NCBI RefSeq assembly: GCF_000003605.2
Contig: NW_003121913.1
Span: 308,484-329,969 of the forward strand
Direction: 5' to 3'
Origin: Saccoglossus kowalevskii
Taxonomy: Eukaryota > Hemichordata > Enteropneusta > Harrimaniidae
DNA length: 21,486 nucleotides
Positions within the stretch are counted from its first letter, which is position 1; each line of letters begins with the position of its first letter. Of this stretch, positions 2,000 through 21,486 are shown one piece after another. Made by a program: the position numbers and the translations under genes. A model generated the notes under the pieces. The model did not search any database. It saw only the letters and a list, made by a program, of their open reading frames with translations, and was not told the DNA's origin.

Positions 2000-2280
2000 T
2001 ATATTATAATATTAAACTGAATTTAATTTGTTTCATACAACTTTTCAAAATTACACACAGAAGCCAAACTAGAGTTTCTACTGGAACCCAAAGAAAAGAG
2101 TAATTATAATGACAGTTTTAGGTGAAACAGGTGGTACAAGAGTCCAGCAATCACACAGCAAATGAAGTTGGCTATTCATAGTCAATCCTCTTCATCTGTT
2201 ATATCAGTTGCCATCTTCAATCATCCACCTCGTGCCAAGTACAGCGTCCAGAGAAAACTAATCACAGTCCAGTCACCATA

Positions 2281-3471
2281 TTATGACCTCTTCTTATATT
2301 CTTCTATGTGTGTCAGGATCCATGCAGGACCAGTCACCAGGCCAAAGAATATAACTGTGAAAGCTATGACGCCCTCCTATTGAAAATACAAAACAAGGAT
2401 AGAATAAATATTTATTAGAAGAACGATATACAGTAGCCCCTCGCTAACTCGAGCCTCAATAACTCGCGGTCCCGGTTAATTCGTGGCTATCACCATGGCT
2501 CCCAAAATCATAGTACATACATGTATGTACATGTATTGTTTTTGATGTCCATTTTTTTTCTTTGTGCGCGAGTCTGTTTGTTTTTATTCATAAATGTGCG
2601 AAGTTTTAAACACCGACACCCGCGACTTAGCGAGGGGCCACTGTATTAAGTTTCAGTGGATGTTTTACATACATTAATGAATCTTTCTGCAATGTTTGTT
2701 GCGCCTCAAGCTACTTTGGAGTGTAACTGCATTGTTATATAACACTATACTATATAGGTAGAGTTAAAAACGAAAATGTTTGACAGCATCCCCTAGCGGT
2801 TTGCTATCAAACGATCTCTTTCTCATGAGAATTTTATAGCGTTAGCTAACAAAGAAAATTGACAAAATTCTGTAAAATGTTGTGCTACTGAGCATACCCC
2901 AGTAAATCGGCTCCATCTTTCTGGTGAACCATTTTTGAGTGACATTCATTCATACTATGACCACAGGCGCACGTTACGTTTTTTGGATAATAAAAAGTAC
3001 CTTAAGTAGGATTGGAGGTCAGGATAAGGATAAGTCAGTCGTCGGTCCCTTTTTATTATCCAAGAAACGTACCGAGCATCACAAACACATGAAGGATACC
3101 CACTAATGCATTGTGGGATGTTTGAAAGGTAATAAAACCAATTTAATACACAAGCGCGTTTTTCTCCTGTGTCTTATTTAAACCTGTTAAACGAAACCAC
3201 GTAAATGCTTTTAGTGCAAAAGACTGTAAACAAGAAATGGCATTATTATAATTAGACAGTCTTGAATTTTAGTCAAATCCACATGCGTCGGCAACATTTC
3301 GCCGGTTACAGCGACAGTTTAGCAGCGACTGTACGACTTAAAAACACGTACCGGAGTGGATAGTTTCACTTTTGCTGGCCCACCTAGAACTGTGCGGCGT
3401 TGAATTGCCTGGCTCTGATTCCGTAACATCGGAACAGATCTCTGAAATAAACCACGAATTACTCCGGACAT
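2281..3471 (-). CDS. COX8: Cytochrome c oxidase subunit 8 precursor, complete, two coding exons
   Basis: COX8 is a small nuclear-encoded, single-span subunit of mitochondrial complex IV in the inner membrane. Exon 1 is 3471-3352 (40 codons), starting MSGVIRGLFQRSVPMLR and ending KVKLSTP. The donor GTACGT follows at 3351. Exon 2 is 2376-2281 (31 codons plus TAA), after the acceptor TTTTCAATAG. The join is phase 0. Residues 2-30 are rich in Arg, Gln and Ser with no acidic residue, as in a mitochondrial presequence. Residues 43-60 form the hydrophobic span, and the end GPAWILTHIEEYKKRS matches the human COX8A tail PAGWILSHLETYRRPE. The total is 71 residues against 69 in human COX8A. The ATG has A at -3. 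The 975-base intron holds two MITEs. The gene faces BTBD7 across a shared promoter zone. Identification is by motif and architecture, not by search. Confidence 0.9.
2431..2643. mobile_element. pogo/Tigger-type MITE, 213 bp, inside the COX8 intron
   Basis: The terminal inverted repeats start CAGTAGCCCCTCGCTAACTC on the left and CAGTGGCCCCTCGCTAAGTC on the right (reverse complement). Direct TA dinucleotides flank the element (2429-2430 and 2644-2645). CAGT ends, the CCCTCG core and the TA target are typical of pogo/Tigger non-autonomous elements. The interior has no coding capacity and contains an 18-bp perfect palindrome, GTACATACATGTATGTAC (2513-2530). It sits in the COX8 intron about 55 bases upstream of the exon 2 acceptor. 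Confidence 0.85.
2971..3074. mobile_element. Small foldback element (MITE-like) inside the COX8 intron
   Basis: Arms at 2973-2997 (core TTGGATAATAAAAAG) and 3049-3072 (core CTTTTTATTATCCAAG) pair over about 24 bases with few mismatches, separated by about 50 bases. The arm ends read GTTACG and CGTAC. I see no convincing target duplication, so the family is unknown. Confidence 0.6.
3107..3118 (+). promoter_or_regulatory. ZNF143/THAP11-like motif TGCATTGTGGGA
   Basis: Matches the core of the motif written GCATTSTGGGA that is frequent in promoters of nuclear mitochondrial genes. Here it lies within the COX8 intron, about 360 bases inside the gene. A similar pair (GCATCGTGGGG, TGCATCATGGGA) lies near 9256-9287. 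Motif match only. Confidence 0.25.
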
Positions 3472-3500
3472 TGTGTCAACTCAACTTTGTGCTCAAAATA

Positions 3501-3511
3501 CAAGATGGCGT
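3501..3511 (+). promoter_or_regulatory. YY1-type motif CAAGATGGCGT
   Basis: Matches the YY1 core AANATGGCGNC. It lies about 30 bases upstream of the COX8 ATG, in antisense orientation to COX8, probably within its 5'UTR or at its start site. YY1 and GABP sites are known in promoters of several complex IV subunit genes. Confidence 0.45.
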
Positions 3512-3756
3512 CCGCTCTGTCCGTCTGCACGTATCACGTCAACTACCCCTACAAAAAGAGTGGTATCGACACGGGCTATTCAACGAGAGATCCGGGAACT
3601 TGGAATTTGACTTTCAAGTGAATACACTTTAGTAAATATAGATCACTGGCTGACATGTAATCTGTTTTATTATATGTAAAACCAAGTATATTGTAATAAC
3701 ACGTAAATATCCATGAAATAGCAGACGAACGTATTGCTTCTGAAATGGTTTCAGCC

Positions 3757-3765
3757 ACTTCCGGT
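3757..3765 (-). promoter_or_regulatory. GABP (NRF-2)/ETS site, ACCGGAAGT on the minus strand
   Basis: A perfect ACCGGAAGT lies about 285 bases upstream of the COX8 ATG and about 160 bases upstream of the best plus-strand donor (3928). GABP/NRF-2 is an established regulator of nuclear-encoded cytochrome oxidase subunits. The site could serve both genes. Confidence 0.5.
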
Positions 3766-3789
3766 GATTATTGGGTCGAGTCGGGTAAT

Positions 3790-4307
3790 CGGACTTCATC
3801 GACCAAACCGAGTGTGGACGACAATAGCCGAAGATAGCTGCGGCAAAATAATGGATACGAGTTTCTTACTCAACTCAAGCTATGTACTGACCTAGGATTG
3901 CTAGTGCTATCGGTCACAATTTTCACGGTATGTAAAGGATTATTAACAATTCCAGTTACATGGTTTTTCCATATACTACACTGTCTACCGTAGACAAACA
4001 AAGGGCGTCGACCAAGGTAACAATTCGGCGTTCTGGCGAAGGATCGACTGAATCTGACACTGCCCATGCCCCGTTTCAGGACGATCACCTGGTCGAAATT
4101 CGCGAGTAGTTCCGTCCACTTCTTTCTGGCTCTTTCCTGTTAACGTGATCACTTTTAATTCACCTTTATAAATAGGAACAACATCAACTTCCAAATAATA
4201 CAAGCTCACGATCACAAGATGTTTGAACCGTTTGTTTGTTGTCATTGTCGCTTTCAAAGTTTTACGGCGTCTGATCGATGACCGAGTTGCCATTGCACCC
4301 ATTGAAG
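3790..4307 (+). other. BTBD7: Candidate non-coding first exon(s) of BTBD7
   Basis: BTBD7's coding exon begins with a splice acceptor, so a 5' exon must lie upstream. In the CpG-rich zone three plus-strand donors look usable: ACG|GTATGT (GT at 3928), AAG|GTAACA (4017) and GAA|GTGAGT (4308). The first follows the GABP site by about 160 bases and would give a short leader exon. None carries a long reading frame. Which donor is used cannot be told from sequence. Confidence 0.35.
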
Positions 4308-4320
4308 TGAGTCGCCATGT
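4307..4320 (-). promoter_or_regulatory. Second YY1-type motif, AACATGGCGAC on the minus strand
   Basis: A second full match to AANATGGCGNC, opposite in orientation to the one at 3501. An ATG with good context opens an 18-codon frame here on the minus strand (4318 leftward), which I do not call as a gene. Confidence 0.3.
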
Positions 4321-4440
4321 TGTTGTTCGGTAATCTGGCGGTCCATCGTTATTTTAAACCGTACCACCATACGACTGCAAATAGCGCGTCTTCTGACTTT
4401 TAGTTAGTTGTAACTAGAGTATCACATATTTTGCGGTCGA

Positions 4441-5626
4441 GTGCAATCCGCTCATTTCAGTAACTCATATTTAATTGTAACTCAAGGTTAGACTGACAAG
4501 CTTACATATACAAACCATGTGACGATCTCATCCAACTTTTCAACAAAATTTCTGGGTGAATTTGCCGTATGGTTCTAAGGTGCTCTTTTTGCAGTAAATT
4601 ACGTTGTGTTTACGTGTAAACATAAACGTCCATAGAAATGCACGTACGTGGGAATATATTCCAAAAGGTGCCACCTAGTCTCACTAATCGCAAATTATTT
4701 GGCCTTGATTTACAAATTGACAACAAGTCAATTTTGTACTGTTACATTAACTTGAAAACACACACGTCCATGTAACAATAACATATATTTAAAGTAAGGA
4801 TTTTAAATCTTTGATGTCTGATAACTTTAACATGAGAGTACTTTTGACTTTTTTAGTCAGAGTATGGAGCTCCATGGATAAGGGTCAATACACCTCTGCC
4901 ATGGGTTGGTGTGTTTGAATAATCTTTATATGCCAACCAGTAAAACCTTGGTGTATGTTTGTCATGTGCCTATAATGAATTTCATTCCATATTTTGATGT
5001 TCACTAACACCTATCGTACCTTCTGGCTTCTTCTTCCTAGTAAACAGTTAGAAATTTTCATGAATTACGGATTTTATGGCTTTTCTTAGGCAATATTTCG
5101 CTAAAGTCACTGACAGTCTTTGGTGTGGGACCACAGAGAAATTTTCTCCGCTATAGAATTTTGTGACTTTCACTAATTCACAAAGATTTGTCTCTCTTGA
5201 AATTTAATCGCTTTACTCTATTATCTACATGCTTAATTACTACATGTGTGTATTGATAGACCTTGGAATACAATGACACACAACCGTAAAACTGTTAAAA
5301 TATTTAATACAATTAAACTCGATGCAGGAGAGTTGTCACACTTTTGCTGTGTGAACTTTTCAATTCTATTATGATTAATTGTAGAAACTGAACCAAATTT
5401 AAATTCTTGTGTCTTCGTCAAATTCATTCATATGTTTTGTTTTGCTTCTAAATCTTGTTTTTTTTAATCCAATAATATCTGAGAGAACCACAAGACCAGC
5501 AAATTTTCAGTTTAATTTGAATAAAATTATTCTTTGAAGATTCAAAGTCTGCAGCTGATTATGCCTCGTTTGTTTCATGTATTCATTGGGATGTCTGATC
5601 ATTTTATGATTTTTTGCATCTTATAT
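4441..5626 (+). other. BTBD7 intron 1, unassigned part
   Basis: AT-rich sequence with no supported gene, repeat family or long inverted repeat noticed on either strand. Confidence 0.5.
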
Positions 5627-5628
5627 TA

Positions 5629-5836
5629 CTGTAGAATACTTTATGTTCGCTTGGAATTTATTTTCGCTATTTTCGCTGAAGGGATGATTCAGTGAAAATA
5701 AAATCCAGCGAATATACATTTTTTCCTATATTTTACATTAATCTCATCAAAAATCAGTGAAAATAAATTCTAAGCAAAACGCCCAAAATACCTTTTCAGC
5801 GAAAATTAATGCCAGCGAAAATAAAGTATTCCACAG
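5629..5836. mobile_element. TA-flanked palindromic MITE, copy 1 (208 bp)
   Basis: Terminal inverted repeats of about 40 bases start CTGTAGAATACTTTATGTTC (left) and CTGTGGAATACTTTATTTTC (right, reverse complement). TA flanks both ends (5627-5628, 5837-5838), as for Tc1/mariner-type insertion. The interior repeats the GCGAAAATAAA/TTTATTTTCGC motif in both orientations, so the whole element can fold. A second copy of identical length lies at 17880-18087, about 11-12% different by eye. Confidence 0.85.
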
Positions 5837-6064
5837 TACATTGCATGTTCCTGTTTTCTTTTCAATCTTGCCTGTGTTTTGTATTCCAAATTTTCTGTTT
5901 GTTTTTTGTTTAATTAATTATTTTTAGCCAGGTGACAGTTTTGAACATTAAATGTCTCCTGACTTGCTTTATGTTCAAATTGCAAGTTCAAGAAGCTGAC
6001 ATATGATGCATTTTGCCACAAAAACCATATTTATCTCAAATACTAGTAGTAATTCAAAGCACTA

Positions 6065-6276
6065 TTTTGGTGTCGACCAAGCTTGGTCGAAGATGATTAC
6101 CTGCGGACATCAACCATCAAAGTTGCATCCGTTAGTGAATGAATCTCGACCAGTATTTTTAGCTTTCCCATTGAGTCTGTACCACACTCACCGGGGAAAG
6201 GGTCAGGCATTTGAACTCTGGTTTACTGATCACAAGTCAGTGAAGTCTGATGCAACAACCACTATGCTACCAGTGT
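6065..6276 (-). mobile_element. tRNA-derived SINE-like element, minus strand
   Basis: On the minus strand an A box TAGCATAGTGG (6269-6259) fits TRGYNNARNGG fully, and a B box AGTTCAAATGC (6217-6207) fits GGTTCGANTCC at most positions, 41 bases apart. Between them ACTGA-CTTGTGA-TCAGT forms a 5-bp stem with a 7-nt loop, like an anticodon arm with TGT in the anticodon position. There are about 9 more bases than a normal tRNA before that arm, and the acceptor stem does not pair. A non-tRNA body of about 130 bases follows and ends near a perfect 18-bp palindrome (6073-6090). I found no clear target duplication and cannot name the family. Confidence 0.6.
6073..6090. repeat. Perfect 18-bp palindrome TCGACCAAGCTTGGTCGA
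   Basis: Self-complementary over all 18 bases and GC-rich in an AT-rich setting. It lies at the 3' end of the SINE-like element and may be its tail structure. Confidence 0.9.
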
Positions 6277-8014
6277 TTGCAACTGAACATTTCAATTTGT
6301 CACGTACGAATCCATGTTGAAATATTGCTATCACGTTTAGAAATATCACTGTGTACACCTTTACTATTCATTAATGAATATGCTGATTTTGCATCGAATG
6401 CTATATCGGTAACTAGTTTTTGGTATTAGACTGTCCTTTGACCCCCAGATGTTTCATTTACATTAGTTGGACCCACCAAGCTGACAGGATGTTAAATACA
6501 ACAAACAGGATATCGCTAAATGAAACTCAACATATATAATTTTGTCATAAAATAAAAAAAATATATAGTAAGAAACATTCTACGAAGAAAACAGGATTCT
6601 TACAGTTTGTAGTCTTTCATGTTAATGAAAATTTTGTGGTGCTTGTTGTACATTTGAATTATCCTCATGTTCTGCAAGTTTAGGGTTAGGGTCTTTGAAG
6701 CTTCTCAGTTCCACAAAGTCCTGACTGCCAATTGATTGATTGATGTTGGTAGTTTCATTCATTGAAATGTACAAGGTAAATTGGACACTTAGTAGCTACA
6801 GTAATTGACGTGCATGTAAAATCTGTTGATGATATGATCCTATCAAGAACTACCGGTATGTGGTTTTTGTGATTGTATACCTTTTTGCTTTTTAAAATAG
6901 ATTTCTTGTGGAATCCTGCTAATCAACTTGTCTAACCAAACCTATCTATAAACATTCTTCATGTGATCGTTTTGTATATATATTCACTCTGTATTCCAAA
7001 AAATTGCTCTATTATTCCTCATGGAAAATTGAACCGAATTGCATTTTAAATAGCATACGGAACAAGTTTTAATTATGTTTGGATTTCACCCTGGCCTGTA
7101 GTAACAAATGACATATTTTAACAGCCGCTACCAAAGAAATTGTGTTACTTTCTCAGACAGCTTGTTAATCTGATCATTTTGACATAATGTTGGCACTAGC
7201 CTGGAGTGCATATTTGTATTTACTTTACACTACTTTAAATAAAATCAAAGAGACAAACTGTCTACCTTAAATGAATTTATGCCAAAATTGGCTTATCTAG
7301 ATCACACATGTCAGATCATCAGTGATTAATGTCCGAGACCACCATTAATACTTTTGATATTATTGCCCTGATATGAAGTATGATGTGTAAGTACTTGGGA
7401 TTGTGGACTTATTTCAGTACAACACAGTATGTGTTTTGTGATAATATTCAGTAATAAGTTTTTCTGTTTAGCACTTTTATGGTTTCAACTGGAATCTTGT
7501 CTAAATAGCCCCATGCTTTCTTGATGATATTTCCAATACTACCATATTCACTCTATTAGATGCACAGGTTTTTTTTCTAAACTGGGGCACAGCGCGTTTC
7601 CAGGACGATTCCCCTGTGTATGCTCCCTTCTTGTTCATTTTTTCTAGAAAAACCCCTGGAAGCACATGTGAAAAATCAATTGCATTAACTGTATATTGGA
7701 TCATTCAAGTATTTCATCCATTGGCCATGGACATAGAACTTACACTCACATAAGTGCATAAGTTACTAATAGAGCAACTACAGGTACCGGGTAGTTGAAT
7801 TTTGCAATTCATAATGTATCCCAATTCACATGCTGAGTGATGAATGCAAAGATGTTGTACAATTTTCAACTTATCTGGAATTAATTGATTCTATATAATG
7901 ATACATGATTCTTTTTGAGAGAAGTCAGAGTTTGAATACTAATTTCTTAAATTTACATCTCAAATGATTAGTGAAATTTTGCTAAAAGGGCGATTAAAAA
8001 CTTTGCTGCATACT
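6277..8014 (+). other. BTBD7 intron 1, unassigned part
   Basis: No gene recognised. Short open frames here (for example 7501-7704 minus) show no motif and no conserved look. Two TTAGGG units near 6681 are treated as chance. Confidence 0.5.
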
Positions 8015-8159
8015 CAGGGCTTGATGTTAATGTTAAAACTCACTTAGTGCCCATAGTGTACATGTATGTAATGTTGCCTGTCTATAAACTATTAAGGCAA
8101 GTGAGTTTTAATTCAATTGCCAGAATGGCAATTTTACTTTTCCTTAGCATCAAGCCCCG
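8015..8159. mobile_element. hAT-like foldback MITE, 145 bp
   Basis: Ends read CAGGGCTTGATGTTAA on the left and CGGGGCTTGATGCTAA on the right (reverse complement), like many hAT termini. A second inverted pair lies inside: TTAAAACTCACTT (8033-8045) with AAGTGAGTTTTAA (8099-8111). A third is AATTGCCA-gaa-TGGCAATT (8115-8133). The 8-bp duplication expected of hAT is not recognisable (TGCATACT against ATACATGT). Confidence 0.6.
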
Positions 8160-8671
8160 ATACATGTGTTTTTTTCTCCATGATTAAACAAGTGGCTTCT
8201 GCAGCCTTGTCCTGGACCTGAATAGTGCTCTCTGCCATCAGTATCACTCAACAGTAGCAAATTACGGTACAGCTGCTGCAGTGTCTGTGCATAAATAGAC
8301 ATGTGTCAATAGAGAAATATCACCTTGCTTATTTATGTGTGGTCTATGGAGTATTAGTTGTTCAATTGGATGCACCAGTAGTTATACTGATAATTAATAA
8401 TGCATTAATGTTATAAATAGTACATTAAATGTGTGTCCACTGTGTACATGCGTTTATTCCAGAGCTTAGAAGTTACAGCCATTCTTGACCAAGTTTCTGC
8501 TGTCAAGTAGAAGTCAACTATGGTTTTTGTTTATAGACGTTGTACATGATGCATTTTTGAATTGTAAAATGTTTGTATCTAAATCTCAAATTATTACTAG
8601 TAACCAATGTGTTATTGAATTAAATGAAGCCATAACTATATATGAATTGTGGTGATCCCTTGATGCATCTA

Positions 8672-8937
8672 CAGGGATTTTCCCTGCATGCACAGTGTGC
8701 ATGTTGAAGTTGAAATTTACCTGCATTAACTTATTGTTTTAAAGTTTTAATAGCATTTACGGGTTATCGATTGATGCAATCACGAAAGAATTTGCTTTTT
8801 TTTTAGTTGTCTTACAATATTGGTTGAACTTAATTAATTTCTACATGCACAGTGTGCACATTATATTTTGAGTTTTCTTGCACTAGGTAATCATCTATGT
8901 GCATAGTGCAGTGTGCACAAGGGCATTTCGACCCCTG
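8672..8937. mobile_element. Possible hAT-like MITE, 266 bp, flanked by ATCTA
   Basis: Left end CAGGGATTTTCCC and right end (reverse complement) CAGGGGTCGAAATGCCC share the CAGGG start. A direct ATCTA lies immediately outside both ends (8667-8671 and 8938-8942). Inside are three near-palindromes built on TGCACAGTGTGCA (8687-8703, 8844-8858, 8899-8918). The terminal match is short and a 5-bp duplication is not typical of hAT, so the boundaries are tentative. Confidence 0.4.
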
Positions 8938-8961
8938 ATCTAACTACATATATGCACAGTT

Positions 8962-9185
8962 TTCCTCTTGTAACGCACAAAGACTGATGACATCACTGTA
9001 TTGAAACACAGTAAACGATGACATCATGAAACAAGAGGAATAACATCCTTTGCACTGAACCACAAAGGATGATGACAACACTTGCTCTAAAACACACTTG
9101 CCCTAGAATATAAATATTATCATTTGATGATGTCCTTTGCACTGACACATAACGGTGACAGCACATGCCTGAAAGGCAAAGAATG
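8962..9185. repeat. Cluster of foldbacks and degenerate GATGACATCA repeats
   Basis: TTCCTCTTGT (8962-8971) pairs with ACAAGAGGAA (9031-9040) and encloses two GATGACATCA copies (8986-8995, 9017-9026). ATCCTTTG (9045-9052) then pairs with CAAAGGAT (9063-9070), followed by GATGATGACAACA. CCTTTGCACTGA recurs near 9133. TGACATCA is a CRE-like bZIP half-palindrome, but the pattern reads as a decayed minisatellite. No function is assigned. Confidence 0.5.
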
Positions 9186-9239
9186 CTTAATTTAATGCTT
9201 GCTCTATACATTATCAACATAGAACTAATCTAGCTAGCA

Positions 9240-12200
9240 GTCACATAAATGAGATGCATCGTGGGGCAACCACAGTGCATCATGGGAGTACCACACAATT
9301 CTCATAGTGCTCCATTTATGAGAGTACGCAAGATACGGTATTATTTTTTCTGTAATTTTTTTTTTTATGAATATTTTTATAATCACCAACAACAAAATGT
9401 TTTAAACCCTGGAAATGATTGGTTTACTCTGCTTGAATTCTACTGCACCATATTATAAGATAATTGTTTCCGGTGTATACACAAAAATTACAGGCTTAAT
9501 AGATAGGCTGTTATATCATGAGTGTTATCATTAAAAGTAAATATTAACTAATACCTAGACCAAATGTTTGCCTATTTGTCTGTCACCATATAAACTATAT
9601 GCACACTGTTTCCTTGTAAGGGTTTCCTCCCCCAGGCTGTTGATGTATCCACAGATGGTTTGGCAAACTGTAAATACTCTGGATTGTTTATAGATAGATG
9701 TCCAGCTGATTGAACTGTCTGTGGTATAATTGAACTTGGCATCATGTTGAGAGGACGAATAAGTCACAAATTGATAAATTACATTGCATAATGTGTTGGG
9801 ATGTGATAACACTTAATGTGCAGTACCGTGCTCGTCCATTGTAATACTAAACTTTACAATACACCAGTGCAAATTAATTATGATAGTATGCAAATTAGTT
9901 GCCTTGAATTGAAAAAAATATTTTACAAATGAAGTCCCTAGTGAATATATTTTTTCCTATTTTTACATGTAAGGAAAATGACATTGTATATCCCTACACT
10001 TTACAGATAAACTATTCAAAGATGATGAGTAACTGTTGGTGTCCTCTCAACACAGTTCAGTGGACAGTAGCTAGATTTCACATGCGTGCATTCTTCCTGA
10101 GTGTTAGATGTCCCACTGGTTACACTTTATAAGATACCATCTGGGGTTGTGTTTATGCTTGATCTTGAACCATTTTAAAATGTCATATCGATCATAATTC
10201 TGGTTCAGTTCACTTTGCTCGTTTATTTTGATGTATATGTATTTAGTTTAGACCAGTAATTGTTGAGAACACGATCTATCATAAAAGTGTGAAAAGCTGT
10301 TTGTGCTAATTACATGTAGTTATACTGGAAAGCCATGAATTTGATTGGTCACTGATTTAACCATCGAAATGCCATTCATTAAACTTTAAATCTAGAAAAC
10401 ACCGGAGGTTATTATTGATATGTTAAATTATTTCTATTGCAATAAAATAAATTTGCAACTCAGATGATTAATTATAATAATATGCAAGTGAGCAGCCATA
10501 TTTGGTTAGGGAGAACTGAACTGTCACACAAGAGATTAATTCTCATGAGCTGTAGTGAGCGTTTAACTGTGGTCCTTAAGACTGGGGGTTCTCATTAGGC
10601 ACAGCCCATGAACCATCAATTCTGGTGACGATTTTAACCCCAATTGTTGCAGTCCCATTGAGTTTTTCAAAGATTAGGTACAATTATGGTTTTAATGGTT
10701 TACTGTGTTTGTTTCCACCCTTTCATGATGCAATTGCCGAGTTTGACAGATTCTCTTTTGAAAATTGACAGAGTTCCAGTAATGCTTTTAATGTATATAG
10801 TCGATATATTGGCTCTAATGTCCTCCTAGTACTGTTAATTTCTAGAATCATGTTGTCAGGGTTCTGATTACACACTAAAATACGATAAAATTGTTCACAT
10901 GACTGTTGAGCTTCTAAATGCATGTCGTTTAATACAAGGGAAACTCTATCGATCAAGCATATATTTTATTGTGAGGCAAGAAAAGGGGGGAAATGTTGCT
11001 ACTGTATACATGTATATCAGACATACAATACCAGTATGGCCAGTAAAGCTGATCCAAAAGGATTTTCTAAAAGAATTTACTTCCAGCACTCAGACTGCAG
11101 AAGTAGAGTTCAGAAAAGTTTACCGGCACTAATTCTATAGCGGCCATTTAAAACATGTTCTTTTTTTCTGTCCTTGCTCTGATCAGTCAATGTCACATGG
11201 CCTATTGATGTTATACCAACACTTCAGAATCTACATTGTACCGTGGAAATAGGCTGAATGATAGAAGTAGAATTAAATAAATACACCGCCAAAGGGGCCC
11301 CTCTAATTGGTTGTGTCTGTTTTTTGGTTCCTAGAATAACGTTACCATTAAATATTATTATCCCTGAGCGTGCGTGTTAAAATCAGCGTACCGTACTGTA
11401 GAGTTGTTTGTGTATTCAGTTATTTTTTTCAAAATCAGGGCCATTCGGTGTTTGTCCATCTGTTGTACACATTGCACTATGTGTAAGCAAAACATTTATT
11501 TTTCCATACATGTTAGATACACACACATAATACTATACACAAGACATTGTTTGCAGGTAAGATTTTTTTTGCCGAGTTATTTTTTTACTTGTTTTTTTTT
11601 TCTAGTCCCTGGCTGGAATATAATAACAAATACTAAATTACCGTGAGCAGTTTGTGAATTTTTTGTGGATATGAAAACATCTGGCGAGTGATAAAATGTG
11701 CTACTTGTTTTAATATATATATCAATATATATCAATATAATATTTATGAAATTCACCGGTAATAGTACACACACACACTGTTATCTGTACTCCTATCAGA
11801 AAATAACAAATAGTACAACCGAGTTATATACCGTCAATGATTTGCGATTCCCATGGGCGGTACGATAACATCACAGCTCTTGTGATGTAGCTGTATCAAA
11901 GTTGAATAAAAAAAATGTGTATTTATATTAACAATATAAATATGTAGTATGACATGAATGAACTTCGTCTTCCAACTGTATATTCTGTCAATCGTATAAC
12001 AAAACTGATCAAAGTTGAAACATATTGGAATACAATCGATAATTATTCTACATTGGCAAATAAGTTTCGTATAATAACTATTATTATACATCTGTCAATG
12101 TAATGCCATAAGTAACAGCTTGCTGTAATTTTGCAGTATTTTATGGGGTATTTTCATCCTACCATATTAGGAAATGCGAATTCCAAATACTAGTATGGAA

Positions 12201-14340
12201 TGATTACGCGGGTAAGCGTCCTTTAATAATAATAAAAAAACATGGCTGCCACCAGGGTTATACCTGACTCCACACAAAAACTGATTCTGTTCTAAACATT
12301 TTTGATTTCAATGATGTATCCTTGGAAGGAAAAGATGTATAAGTTAATTACGCTGCGCATCTGCCGATACTCCTGCTGTACTGTCTTCGTGCGTACTTTG
12401 AGGTATCTTCGTAATAACCTCATATTAAAAGTTGAGTGTTTTTTTTTAATAATTAAGAATCACTTCTGACAAATGCTTTGAGGAATATTTCAACTACAAT
12501 GGACACTATCGGTTGTCTAATGCTCAAATCACTATAATTTCTACCAGCAAAAATTCAATGATATATGTAAATATAAACGGATTACTTCCCAGGTCACATT
12601 GTACGGTTCTAACAAACCCTTAGGATACCAACACATAAAATAGAATAAGAATTTGTTTGTATATTTGTTAAACCTGTATGTGTTATAAACCAGCAGATGA
12701 ATTTGTGATAGTCCTTATAATTAATATAATTAGAGCGACTTCAAAAAAGTCAATTTTTTTGTTTTTTTGAACTAATTGAAATGCACGTATATACAAATTT
12801 GGAATGCTTTTCAATTTTGTTGAATAGAGAGAAAAAAAGACTTACGAAACAGCTTTTGTGAGTCATGTATTCATGAAATACTAGAAGTGAAAGCTTTTGG
12901 TTATACAAATTGGTCCCCTCCATTCATATCTCTGCAGAGAAGGCCAAAAAAAAAAGGCATGCTGTTGCGGATATGGGTTGCATTCCAAGCTGTTGTTAAG
13001 TGCTTTTTAAGTACACTTGATTAAATCCAAAGAAAAGAGGTTGTATTTTATCCATTTATCTCGCAGTGTCATTGTCACGCAAAATCCTGCTCTGTTGCGC
13101 CTTTTTTTTCTCCACTATTGGTAACTTTTAACCTGCTTAGAATATGATGAAACAAAAATTGCGCAGACAAATTGCTTTCTAGTTTTTTAGCATTCTCTTT
13201 CTCCCCAGTCTAGATCACCTGTTTATAACTATTGTTTATCAAAAGTTTGCTGCAAATTGACTGTAGGTCAAAGTTTATATTAACTACTAGTATATGTACA
13301 ATATATAACGTATGTGTGTGGATTTTTAAAAAGGGTATATTTGACAATCTCCATACTTAATAATGTTGAGGTGCACAGACCTGTACACAGCTCGAGGGTA
13401 CAATTCCTGCTAAAATAATAAACCTGAGGATATAAAAACAAATACCGTCTCTGAAAAACAAAATGAGCTGCACTCGTAATATTAAATTGATCTCTTAAAA
13501 AAAATGAATGAGGTTGTTGTATGCATGATTGCATATATGAACACAAGCATTAATAATTTTTTGATAATTGTATTTCTGCTCCCAGGCCAATTGCAGCGAG
13601 TCTGGATGTTATATAGGTGTTAGTTACTAAGGATGTGGTCTGGATGAGTGTTATATTACATTCATTGGTAAATTACTATTAAATTGGGTCATAAAAAAAA
13701 GCTGTTTGATTAAAGTTTTAAAGCAGGAGATGACTGCAATATTTATATGTATAGAGTGATTATGTATTTAGGGTGCGGGGCTGTTTAAATATCAATTATA
13801 CAATGGCTGTATTAATCACACATGAAATTAGTATGCCATAGTATCAGAAGTTGCATTTTATTTATATGTCAGTGTATGTAACATCAATATGCAAATAAAT
13901 GTTAATTCCATCTAATAATGTTCCCCCTCCACCAACCACAAGCAATTTTTCTATTTTAATCACTTAATTATTATTTTTTTTTTTTCAATTTGAAGTTATC
14001 TTAATGAGTTGTCGCTACGAATATTTTGTGGACATTGCTTGTATTTTTTTATTTTCCGTATTTGTTGTCAGAGGTAATAAATGAGTCGCTGTTTCAATAT
14101 TGGTTTTGATCTTGCCTACCGGATTATTAATAGGAATTGAAATTTCTATATGCATGATGTGTCATATACCAGACTGTACGTCTGCACGGTGTAGTCACTG
14201 AAAGCGTCTGTAATAAATATTCATGTCTCTGCTCTCATTAAATGCAAACTGTGTTTCCATCACTACTGAGTAGATTTTGGAAATATATAAGTGTCTTTGG
14301 TTTTAATGTATTTTTTTATTTTGTTTTTTTTTTCTTGTAG
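9240..14340 (+). other. BTBD7 intron 1, 3' part, mostly unassigned
   Basis: AT-rich with many T runs. No exon or repeat family recognised with confidence. A minus-strand frame at 10923-10723 (66 codons from the ATG) has a protein-like composition but matches nothing I know and has no promoter or splice support. The last 30 bases (14311-14340) are the polypyrimidine tract and TAG acceptor of the BTBD7 coding exon. Confidence 0.5.
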
Positions 14341-14619
14341 AGAATTTGATATTGAAACTGTGCTCGACTGTTTCATGGGAAGTACTTTTGTGACTCAACC
14401 ATCGGGGTCTTATCACAATGTTCTCCTGTAACTGAGCCAGGTGACCTGTGTGATTATATATTCTCCATTTTTCGCTCTTTTAACCCACTGGAAGATTCCA
14501 TTATTCCAAACATCAGATCTGAAGACGTTGATTCCCTCGTGTATGGCGGCGCCGTCAATTACTGGTGAGGAGTACTGACAATGATAAACATTTACATGAC
14601 AGCCTCCCAATGTTGAATA
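14341..14619 (+). other. BTBD7: 5'UTR part of the BTBD7 first coding exon, with six upstream ATGs
   Basis: A long T tract ending TTTCTTGTAG (14340) marks the acceptor. The 279-base leader holds upstream ORFs: 14375-14431 (18 codons), 14418-14435 (5), 14543-14578 (11), 14581-14616 (11, with an internal ATG at 14596) and 14610-14723 (37), which overlaps the main start out of frame. The ORF at 14581 is in the BTBD7 frame and its TGA lies 3 bases before the main ATG. Confidence 0.75.
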
Positions 14620-15820
14620 ATGGGAGTGAACACATCAACTTCCCAAGAGAAAGAGAAGGAAAAAGAGAAAGAGAAGCAGTTGGCACGGTTACAGTCATCA
14701 TCATCTCTGACTCAGTACTCTGATGCATTAGCATATCCTGAATATTTCTTGGAGCCTCGAGGAAGCAGTAGTAGCAGTGGCGGTGCTGGTATCAGTATGT
14801 CTTCCTCGGGTAAAGACAAAAAAAAGAAAAGTGCCGGCTTTGCCACTCTGCGCAAGAAATTCATCCGTCGGCGAAAGTCAAGCAAATATGACCATGCAAG
14901 AATTATCCGAGATTTGGTGTCTGGGTGGAGCATGCGAGATTTAAATGCATTAGTCGAAGAATACGAAGCTACAAATGTGCTGAAAGAACTGACTATTCAT
15001 GCTAATTTAGCAAGACCTCATGCCAGCTGTCTTAAAGAGGATTTATCGGATTTATATGACTATAAATACTGTACTGACATTGATCTCATCTTCCTTGGTA
15101 CATGCTTCCCAGTGCACAGAGGTATACTATCGTTGCGGTGTCCATACTTCCGTGATCTCCTCAGACGGCATCCTCAATATGGGGCGCAAGTTCATGTGGA
15201 TATTCGGACAAAAGGAATGGATATTTCAACATTCTCTGCTCTCCTGCGATATCTCTATACAGGTGATTTCAACACGCAGGTGTCACGTTTAGAAAATCTG
15301 GACGTCCTCGTCAAGCTTGGTGATCAGTTTGGCACCCCTAATTTACTAGAACACGACTTTAGGCATTTGTTAGAGACTGGTGAATTCTGCGATGCAGTGT
15401 TAGTGTTCTCATCAGAACCGGCTGCTGAAGTTCAAGGTCAAGAAGCAGCAAGCATTGGGGCAATCTATGAAGAACTATTCTGCCACAAGTCCATCCTAGC
15501 AGCTCGATCACCGTTCTTTCGGAATCTACTCCACAGAAGATGTAGATCAGGGGAAGAGTTAACTGAGAGGACTTTACAACAACCGACTCGTATTGTTTTA
15601 GACGAGTCAATTATCCCTAAAAGATATGCCCGAGTGTTACTTCATGCAATCTACTTAGACGTTGTAGATTTATCATTTGTCATTCAAGACAGCCCTAGTA
15701 TGGGGAGTCTTGGTGAAGTGCAAGCCATGGTATCAGGGAGAGGTCAGTTAACGAGAACCGAAGAAGCAATGGAGGTTTATCAGATTGCCCGATTCTTGGA
15801 TCTAACTATCATGGCTCAAG
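14620..15820 (+). CDS. BTBD7: BTB/POZ domain-containing protein 7, first coding exon (residues 1-400), partial
   Basis: BTBD7 is a double-BTB, BACK-domain protein; the mammalian protein is linked to epithelial branching, E-cadherin loss and cell motility. The ATG at 14620 has A at -3 and G at +4, follows an in-frame TGA (14614) and starts MGVNTS, like human MGANAS. Residues 10-19 are a Lys-Glu repeat, 22-64 are Ser-rich, and 65-89 are a basic block with GFATLRKKFIRRRKSS (human GLATLKKKFIKRRKSN). ALVEEYEATNVLKEL, BTB1 (about 144-240, FPVHRGILSLRCPYF) and BTB2 (about 256-395, CHKSILAARSPFFRNLLHRR, then ARFLDLTIMAQ) follow in the human order. The exon ends CAAG|GTTTGT at 15820, phase 1, at the point where human continues GCEDIIAES. 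Reading into the intron adds 14 residues to a stop at 15864. The BACK domain and C-terminus lie outside the window. Confidence 0.95.
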
Positions 15821-16360: not shown

Positions 16361-17048
16361 GATTGTCACATTATCTGCCTTGTGACGGCCTCATTTATTA
16401 TCTTCACACGACAAAGCATGTTCAGTAATTGTATTATGCAAATTCTTTTATTCTTATTCTCCAGAGCACATGATAGCATCAGAATCAGAATACAATTCAC
16501 CTACTTGCAATTGTCTTTTGTTCCTGCTAGCTGATTGCTTCTTGTTCTAGCCATTGATGCTAGGCATGGTGGATAATTACTCTCTGTAATCTTAATTACG
16601 TGCATTTGGCAATTGAAAAAACACAATGAATAAAAAAAAAAATGATTTGCCTTTGCCCCGCCTGTCTAGTATATTCATAATATCCCTGAGGTGACCGTAC
16701 ATTTTTATTGTACACGCACTATATAGTTTGACTGACTGTCTTAGGGTGGAGGCAGGTGTTCTTTATGGTTCATAAATTCCATTTCAAGTGATTATATCTT
16801 AAGAGCTTTAGCTCTCATTGATGTACTGTATATTTCATGCTCAAGACATTGTAGCATTAAAAAATTTCTCTGAGGGTCTGCGACACAAAGCGTCAGTGGC
16901 TTTCGTGAAAATTTTATTTTTACGAATGTCATAAATTTATGAAATTACGAAACTTTCCAGCAGCAAACGTTATTACTGTTGTTAGTTCCTGCTCGGACTA
17001 ATAGTTTAGTTTCAGTACATGTGTGTTTCCAGATTTGTAAATTCTTCT

Positions 17049-17091
17049 CAAATTGACCGACTAGTGGTCAATTTGTCTCATACATGTATGA
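17049..17091. repeat. Two adjacent palindromes
   Basis: CAAATTGACC-gactagt-GGTCAATTTG (17049-17075) is a perfect 10-bp stem with a 7-nt loop. Two bases later TCATACATGTATGA (17078-17091) is a perfect 14-bp palindrome. Weak inverted similarity continues outward (CATAAATTT and AGCAGC motifs near 16930-16975 and 17100-17125), so this may be the middle of a decayed foldback element. Confidence 0.7.
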
Positions 17092-17879
17092 CCCAAATTT
17101 TCGCTGCTGCAAAATTTTTATGATTTTTACTGACTCTGTAAAAACTTTTCTCTCGCAAAATTAAAGTAAATGTATTTCATTAAGGCGCAGTTGTTGTCGA
17201 GTAGCGCACATTTGCAATCTATGTAAATAAACAACAAAAGTATACATCACATGGAACAATGCTTCACGATGATCGTCACTCGTTACTATCGGTACAGTGT
17301 TTTGTGAAATTTCATGCTGATGGTTTGCTGCCAAATGACATTGTATCAAATCATAACAAATTTATAGCTGGAAAAATTCGGGTAAATTTTACAAATGACA
17401 AAGTAGTTTGAAATCTCGCATGAACATTTGGTGTAAGTCCCGGGATTAACAGCGGGCCCCTTTTGAAAATGCATACAAGTTTAAGTCACTGCATTTTTAC
17501 AGTTACTTCGGCTTAGACTAGTATTCTGTCGTATTGTTCTGTCAGTACAATCCACCTGCATACACAACGGTAGGTGAATAGTCCAATGTACTTTCCTCAC
17601 AAGTACAGCACCCTGTTCTGCCTTGAGAAATTAGAATACCGATAATTCACGTATGAGATAGTCTCAATCATTTTATCAAACATGCTGTGAAACCCTTGTA
17701 AATGTCATAGGCCATTGCTGTGAACATGCGTTGTCAGATTTCATTTGGATTTGATACGTTTACACAGACCCCTTTGCGCATTGAATAGTTTAATGGTGTG
17801 TTTCACATAGTAAAATGAAAACTTGTGTCCTCTTAATAACATGCGTTGACCTTGGACTGTCTTATTTTTCCTTAAGATA

Positions 17880-18087
17880 CTGTAGAATACTTTATTTTTG
17901 CTTGGAATTTGTTTTTGCTATTTTCGCTGATGGGATGATTCCGTGAAAATAAAATCCAACGAATATACTTTTTTCCCTATATTTCACATTAAACTAATCA
18001 AAAATCAGTGAAAATAAATTCCATACGGAATGCCTAAAAAGCCTTTTCAGTGAAAATTAATTCCAGCGAAAATAAACTATTCCACAG
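17880..18087. mobile_element. TA-flanked palindromic MITE, copy 2 (208 bp)
   Basis: Same family, length and orientation as 5629-5836. Ends CTGTAGAATAC and TATTCCACAG, TA on both sides (17878-17879, 18088-18089). Many of the roughly 24 differences from copy 1 are C/T or G/A, as expected from CpG decay. It lies 50 bases left of the family A copy 2 hairpin. Confidence 0.85.
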
Positions 18088-18137
18088 TATATAGATTTTG
18101 TACTGATCAGCCAGGAGAATAGTTTCTCGATCTTGTT

Positions 18138-18900
18138 GACTCTTGTGTGTGAAACACACATGGAAGTCTTTGCAGTTAGTGCATCTGTGTGTATGTGCGT
18201 GTGTGCATGTCTGTTCCACTGGTATTTTAAAAAAACATTAGTACATTTGATTTGTTTTTGGTTGAAATCTGTGCATATTATTTACCTAATTTAAATGATA
18301 ATGCACCAATTTTTAGCTGTTTCATGACTTCCACTGAGAACCGCTCAATGGATTTTGATGAAACTTGGTACATAGATGCTCTGGGACAATGCCCAGACCT
18401 GATTAGTTTTGGGTAAAATTTCATGCATATTAATTGCCTACTGTTCATAATAATTAGTCTGCTGATATTTCAAGTACTAATCATTACATTTCAATAAAAC
18501 TTGGTACATAGCTGTTCTAGAAGTATGCACAGACCTGATTACCAGTAGTTTGTGTTCAAAATATGTGCATATTAATTACCGTTTTTGCATAATTAACCAA
18601 TTTTCTGCTTTTACACTGTCATCACATTTCAATGAAACTTGGTACATAAATGGTCTGTGACATTGCATAAACAATGTTAGTTTTACATTCAAATATGTGC
18701 ATACTAATTACCTGTTTTGCATATTAATTAGTAAATTTTCAGCTTTTCCATCAGTATCTGACATGATTAGTTTAATGGTGAAAAACATGTATATTGTTTA
18801 TCTAATTATTAGTAGCTAATTTCTGATGTCACAAAAAATCAGATTTGAATTGAACCTGTGGTAAAGATGCTCTGGAATAAAACCACAGATGTAAAATCAA
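18138..18900 (-). mobile_element. Tandem-core repeat element, family A copy 2, reverse orientation
   Basis: Read on the minus strand this has the same plan as 1-515: core units, tetranucleotide-like run (18185-18215), the conserved linker TTTGCAGTTA (plus-strand sense), and a 31-nt hairpin at 18138-18168 (stem GTGTGT/ACACAC, outer GACT/AAGTC). The unit anchor AAACTTGGTACATA recurs at 18361, 18497 and 18635 and in decayed form near 18852, so units are shortened to about 137 bp and at least four are present. It is clearly older than copy 1. The right end is uncertain. Confidence 0.75.
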
Positions 18901-20977: not shown

Positions 20978-21486
20978 AGCTCCGCTGTCGACGTTGTCAA
21001 GCGGAACTTATCATATGAGTGATTGTCCGGCGTCGGTGTCCGGCGTCCGTGTCAATGTTTTGCTTTTTCGACTTCTTCTTGAAAACTACAAGCCTGAATG
21101 CTTTGATACTTGGTGTATATGTACCTTGGGTGGACCTCTCTCAGATTTGTTCATTTCATGATCATATCTTCAATTCTCTAATTTTGGTGAATATTTTTGT
21201 CATTTTTGGTAAAAAGTGATATTTTCGACTTCTTGTTAAAAACCGCAAGTCCAATTGCTTTGATATTACATATATAGGTACTACATGTGTATCTCTCTCA
21301 GATTTGTTCATTTTGTAATGATATCTTCAATTCTCTAACTTTGGTGAATATGTTTGTCATTTTTGGTAAAAAGTGATATTTTCGACTTCTTGTTAAAAAC
21401 CGCAAGTCCAATTGCTTTGATATGACATATATAGGTACTACATGTGAATCTCTCTCAGATTTGTTCATTTTGTAATGATATCTTTA
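20978..21486 (-). mobile_element. Tandem-core repeat element, family B, cut by window end
   Basis: A 31-nt hairpin (20978-21008; arms AGCTCCGCT and AGCGGAACT, inner GAC/GTC) is followed by a 16-nt linker, a GTCCGGC/GTCCGTG run (about 21024-21053) and then tandem units. CGACTTCTT recurs at 21069, 21226 and 21383, an exact 157-bp period. Units 2 and 3 differ at about 3 of 104 compared bases, while unit 1 is clearly diverged. Read on the minus strand the hairpin is terminal and followed by AAAAA, the same plan as family A though the sequences are unrelated. No coding frame is supported. The element continues outside the window. Confidence 0.75.

Follow-up and report, generated by a model that had tools for sequence, protein, structure and literature searches.

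Does the head-to-head arrangement of a COX8 gene and BTBD7 in the hemichordate Saccoglossus kowalevskii descend from one that its common ancestor with vertebrates already carried? The question arises from a stretch of 21,486 nucleotides on contig NW_003121913.1 (positions 308,484 to 329,969 of the forward strand; hereafter the window). Here COX8, the smallest nuclear subunit of cytochrome c oxidase, and BTBD7, a BTB-domain regulator of cell adhesion, are encoded on opposite strands between positions 2281 and 15820, which mark the COX8 stop codon and the end of a BTBD7 exon. Judging from the gene structures and from mammalian gene order, we consider that the divergent arrangement was probably inherited from that ancestor, and that the COX8C–BTBD7 end of human 14q32 and mouse chromosome 12 keeps it.

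The COX8–BTBD7 pair and its mammalian counterpart

The gene structures, Pfam matches and orientation confirmed the initial annotation in placing COX8 on the minus strand and BTBD7 on the plus strand, divergently transcribed. The COX8 ATG lies 10.9 kb from the nearest BTBD7 exon that was recognised. The features of the two genes are as follows.

2281..2376, minus strand: COX8 exon 2, from the acceptor TTTTCAATAG to TAA, encoding the transmembrane part and the C-terminus
2377..3351, minus strand: COX8 intron, GT..AG, phase 0, between codons 40 and 41
3352..3471, minus strand: COX8 exon 1, from the ATG to the donor GTACGT; 40 codons for the presequence and the start of the mature part, with a phase-0 donor
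14341..14619, plus strand: 5' UTR portion of BTBD7's first coding exon, preceded by a polypyrimidine tract and an AG ending at 14340; six upstream ATGs
14620..15820, plus strand: coding part of the same exon (MGVNTS...), with two BTB stretches and a phase-1 donor (GTTTGT after 15820)

Splice reconstruction in the window gave an intact, two-exon COX8 gene with a product of 71 residues. The spliced product matched PF02285, which covers the mature subunit, over positions 3–43 of 43 (E 4.4e-12, 46.2 bits against a cut-off of 24), placing it by profile in the COX8 family, and a genome-wide search with the same profile landed on exon 2. Its nearest solved structure was the COX8B chain 2y69_M (E 2.7e-4), which we take to be of bovine type. 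The intron precedes Glu41 in phase 0, in the same alignment column as Glu39 of human COX8A. A human COX8A splice mutation, c.115-1G>C (p.E39Rfs*27), locates an intron immediately ahead of Glu39, after codon 38 (PMC9489860). By this alignment the COX8 intron matches intron 1 of human COX8A in position and phase, which favours orthology within the COX8 family and argues against a retrocopy in S. kowalevskii; the shared position does not single out COX8C.

For BTBD7, the window holds the first coding exon, and the remainder of the gene would lie beyond it. The ATG at 14620 is closely preceded by in-frame stops and opens 400 full codons plus one base. The exon carries the BTB domain (PF00651, E 3.3e-21) in two stretches that follow a basic N-terminal segment, and its product is identical to human BTBD7 at 195 of 338 residues (58%); two BTB stretches in this setting and high identity are the traits of the BTBD7 family. 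A query from the BTBD7 C-terminus matched weakly at two places elsewhere in the genome and nowhere on the contig of the window, which reads largely N. As side observations on this exon, the six ATGs ahead of the start codon (14341–14619) may mean translational control, and the start MGVNTS (14620–14637), like human MGANAS, fits the N-myristoylation signal MGxxxS.

The genome searched comprises 572 Mb in 4,830 contigs, with the window on C1467 (388.9 kb). Outside the window, 148,157 of the 158,907 bases examined on C1467 read N, so that absences on this contig are uninformative and placements elsewhere are informative. Among the four matches that the COX8 family search returned at E up to 1, only the copy in the window passed the cut-off (one of 14 control genomes gave a match, itself below the cut-off). 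The BTBD7 exon returned two matches at E up to 0.001, a full one at its own locus and a weak, generic BTB match at 31% identity. In the readable genome, COX8 and BTBD7 thus each have one good match. Searches for relatives in the viral and prokaryote collections confirmed none of the pattern matches (0/208, 0/429 and 0/21).

On the mammalian side, we take human COX8C to lie on the strand opposite BTBD7, about 14 kb from the BTBD7 5' end and within the initial part of UNC79 (14q32.12), with UBR7 presumably adjoining BTBD7 on the far side. A study of expression quantitative trait loci in mouse gives a chromosome 12 gene list that ends with "... Chga, Itpk1, Moap1, Btbd7, Cox8c" (PMC4519886). A human linkage study lists BTBD7, UBR7, UNC79, PRIMA1, COX8C, OTUB2 and ITPK1 for chromosome 14, not in positional order (PMC6834745). 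Other studies place BTBD7 and UNC79 in a cattle interval (BTA21, 57.87–58.10 Mb; PMC9392250) and name BTBD7 with UNC79 and UBR7 at a goat signal (PMC8369930), and a conference abstract associates one human variant with testis expression that is reduced for BTBD7 and raised for UNC79 (PMC11713753).

Were 20,000 genes ordered at random, two named ones would be both adjacent and divergent with an analytic probability of 2.5e-5, or 5e-5 if they may lie within two places of each other. This low chance favours inherited linkage, which we regard as the probable explanation, over coincidence, which we regard as unlikely; the remaining weight is reserved for error in the mammalian picture. Under inherited linkage, COX8 and BTBD7 would be two unrelated, divergent genes at an ordinary nuclear locus. 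COX8 would be transcribed from a CpG-rich zone beside its ATG, and BTBD7 would start at a non-coding exon upstream of 14341, either in the CpG zone of COX8 or in a zone of its own at 11.2–12.8 kb. The linkage would probably have persisted because one gene contains or adjoins regulatory sequence of the other, or simply because rearrangement is slow, with UNC79, UBR7 and ITPK1 outside the conserved unit in this genome.

COX8 genes and the ancestral position

If ancestral, the pair provides a positional anchor for tracing the three COX8 genes of vertebrates, whose protein of about 70 residues hardly allows a tree. The initial annotation had proposed that COX8C, rather than COX8A, may hold the ancestral position, and this is possible. 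Sequence cannot assign an isoform to that position. The local alignment score of the S. kowalevskii product was highest for bovine COX8B (83), followed by human COX8A (62) and, last of the three, human COX8C (52). A review reports that COX8C changes faster (PMC5448071); its low score fits this and says nothing about position.

Two histories would accommodate an ancestral pair. In one, to which we give a little short of an even chance, COX8A (11q13) and COX8C (14q32) both arose by whole-genome duplication from a single ancestral COX8 that stood beside BTBD7, and neither alone holds "the" ancestral position. The regions 11q13 and 14q share many duplicate pairs, and OTUB1 lies beside COX8A on 11q13, OTUB2 near COX8C on 14q32. 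The human chromosome 14 list cited above has OTUB2, BTBD7 and COX8C together (PMC6834745). Against this, a literature search yielded nothing on such a duplication pair. An OTUB search of the genome gave no matches and is uninformative, as there were none in the controls either. Under such a duplication both copies would go back to a single locus, and BTBD7 would have stayed with the 14q copy only. In the other history, which we hold tentatively and lean against, the pair was present in the last common ancestor with vertebrates, the fast-evolving, testis-enriched COX8C sits at the original locus, the ubiquitous COX8A is a duplicate no longer accompanied by BTBD7, and UNC79 came to lie beside BTBD7 in vertebrates alone.

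The interval and candidate start sites

Whether the two genes also share a start zone bears on how they might have been held together. The features relevant to transcription are listed below, with CpG content given as the observed/expected ratio.

2201..4600, no strand: CpG-rich zone, ratio 1.09, GC 0.405, spanning COX8 and some 1.1 kb on its upstream side
3502..3513, plus strand: YY1-like motif AAGATGGCGTCC, 30 bases before the COX8 ATG; one match against 0.02 expected
3757..3764, minus strand: ETS/GABP-like motif CCGGAAGT; one match against 0.17 expected, and present in 16 of 100 shuffles
11201..12800, no strand: CpG-normal, low-GC stretch, a candidate BTBD7 promoter; ratio 0.88–0.98 in three tiles of 800 bp

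The initial annotation had both genes diverging from one CpG-rich zone. The zone itself is real on the COX8 side: its ratio of 1.09 compares with a median of 0.42 over 95 tiles of 800 bp from two contigs, only five of which exceed 1.09, and it is probably the COX8 promoter. This half of the statement is shown; BTBD7, for which the stretch at 11.2–12.8 kb offers an alternative, may start in either zone, and zone 2201..4600 is possibly a promoter that it shares with COX8.

That both genes start from the CpG zone at about 3.5–4.6 kb, and that this holds the pair together, is a proposal we would rate somewhat under even. Between 2401 and 4800 the 800-bp tiles have ratios above 1, and the tiles from 4.8 to 11 kb are mostly CpG-poor, as a methylated first intron would give. 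The ETS-like and YY1-like motifs, one of each, point the same way, weakly, since both patterns were picked after the sequence was read. Against a shared zone stand the 10.9 kb that separate the COX8 ATG from the first known BTBD7 exon and the corresponding distance of about 14 kb in human, as well as the absence of an NRF1-like site (no matches with up to one mismatch allowed). The CpG-normal stretch at 11.2–12.8 kb also counts against it: the donor-like site CAGGTAAGA at 11557, the top score in 3472–14340, lies beside that stretch. Ratios of 0.90–0.94 also occur at 401–1600 and 16801–17600, so that such a stretch is by itself no promoter mark.

Between 3342 and 13549, none of the 27 open reading frames of at least 60 residues, the size to which the screen was limited, reached a Pfam cut-off (one weak match fell below it, E 0.075), and Rfam gave no match in the window at gathering score. 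Several repeats were also seen. A 222-nt element occurs at 5620–5841 and 17871–18092 in two copies that are 87% alike; the copy at 5620–5841 has inverted ends of about 42 bp starting TACTGTAGAATACTTTAT and resembles a miniature inverted-repeat transposable element. A tandem repeat of 162-nt units occupies 2–427, with parts recurring inverted some 18 kb away (18337–18750, 72–81% complementary), and a tandem array of 157-nt units at 21065–21484 runs to the window end.

Flanking genes and known systems

The initial annotation had advised looking for UNC79 near the COX8–BTBD7 locus, and it was placed elsewhere. UNC79 gave eight matches, seven of them above the cut-off, and all lie on C135 at 157–164 kb of 431 kb. 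The first of them has a THADA-like exon on the opposite strand, about 14 kb upstream (PF10350, E 2.8e-12, one of eight open reading frames tested). UNC79, with this exon rather than BTBD7 on its upstream side, was rejected as part of a conserved unit in this genome. UBR7 gave six matches, all on C2605, and ITPK1 gave two, both on C2986 (86.9 kb); both were rejected as flanks on C1467. Of the mammalian neighbourhood, only the COX8–BTBD7 pair matches here, and not the three flanks tested. It is possible that the contigs of UNC79, UBR7 and ITPK1 belong to one chromosome with C1467.

Two observations made in passing stand apart from these placements. At about 142–164 kb of C135, UNC79 (plus) and the THADA-like exon (minus) diverge, with a CpG tile of ratio 1.2 between them at about 155 kb; they are possibly another divergent pair, unlike the vertebrate setting of UNC79. 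On the mitochondrial contig, C4830, COX1 and ND1 (on opposite strands) have ATA at isoleucine-like positions, AAA at lysine-like positions and AGA possibly at serine positions, a combination that animal mitochondrial codes do not usually show.

Several points weigh against inherited linkage. UNC79, UBR7 and ITPK1 lie on C135, C2605 and C2986 and not on C1467, so that the flanks are not common to the two lineages. The mouse list lacks Ubr7 and Unc79, and its map order, which is unstated, was taken as such (PMC4519886). A salmon candidate list that mixes regions has BTBD7, UBR7, PRIMA1 and ITPK1B, with COX8 absent from the text (PMC6786245). Orientation and exact adjacency in mammals are background assumptions here, and the comparison spans one genome and the mammals. 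Three COX8 paralogues and the post hoc choice of the pair raise the chance figure several-fold, which leaves it small. The initial annotation's proposal of a pairing kept since the split from vertebrates is partly supported: for the pair itself, by its divergence, which agrees with the presumed mammalian orientation, by the single good matches and by the mouse list; it does not extend to the wider neighbourhood, which is on other contigs.

Coincidence would have COX8 and BTBD7 become neighbours independently here and in mammals, COX8C being a duplicate that landed beside BTBD7; the unshared flanks, the review's reporting of COX8C from several mammals only (PMC5448071) and the higher COX8B and COX8A scores of the S. 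kowalevskii product speak for it, and we nevertheless consider it improbable, given how seldom chance would give this adjacency and orientation again (2.5e-5 to 5e-5) and the gene structures and sequence similarity that, in the same review, indicate gene duplication for all three isoforms (PMC5448071), from which the exclusion of a retrocopy is our own reading.

Inherited linkage, which we prefer, can be set beside three known systems. Like divergent gene pairs with bidirectional promoters, this pair is head-to-head, with a CpG-rich start zone and a housekeeping partner; in those pairs the starts lie less than 1 kb apart, whereas here they are possibly many kb apart and a shared promoter is only a candidate. 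The mammalian COX8C–BTBD7–UNC79 locus (human 14q32.12, mouse chromosome 12) likewise has a COX8 gene beside BTBD7, going by the mouse list, in an orientation that we take as divergent. It differs in that UNC79 accompanies BTBD7 in cattle, and both UNC79 and UBR7 do so in goat, whereas the two are on other contigs here, and in having two or three COX8 genes against one over the cut-off here. Lastly, ancient conserved metazoan microsyntenic gene pairs have reportedly been described (Irimia, 2012). The present comparison differs in covering one genome and the mammals only, and COX8–BTBD7 was not found named as such a pair in the literature read; the open-licence papers on BTBD7 with COX8C or any COX8 seem not to concern gene-order evolution, which is weak evidence of novelty. 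The likeness is that two unrelated genes stay neighbours in the same orientation over deep time. An ancestral pair would be another case of functionally unrelated genes staying together for hundreds of millions of years, and a test bed for explanations by regulatory blocks as against slow rearrangement.

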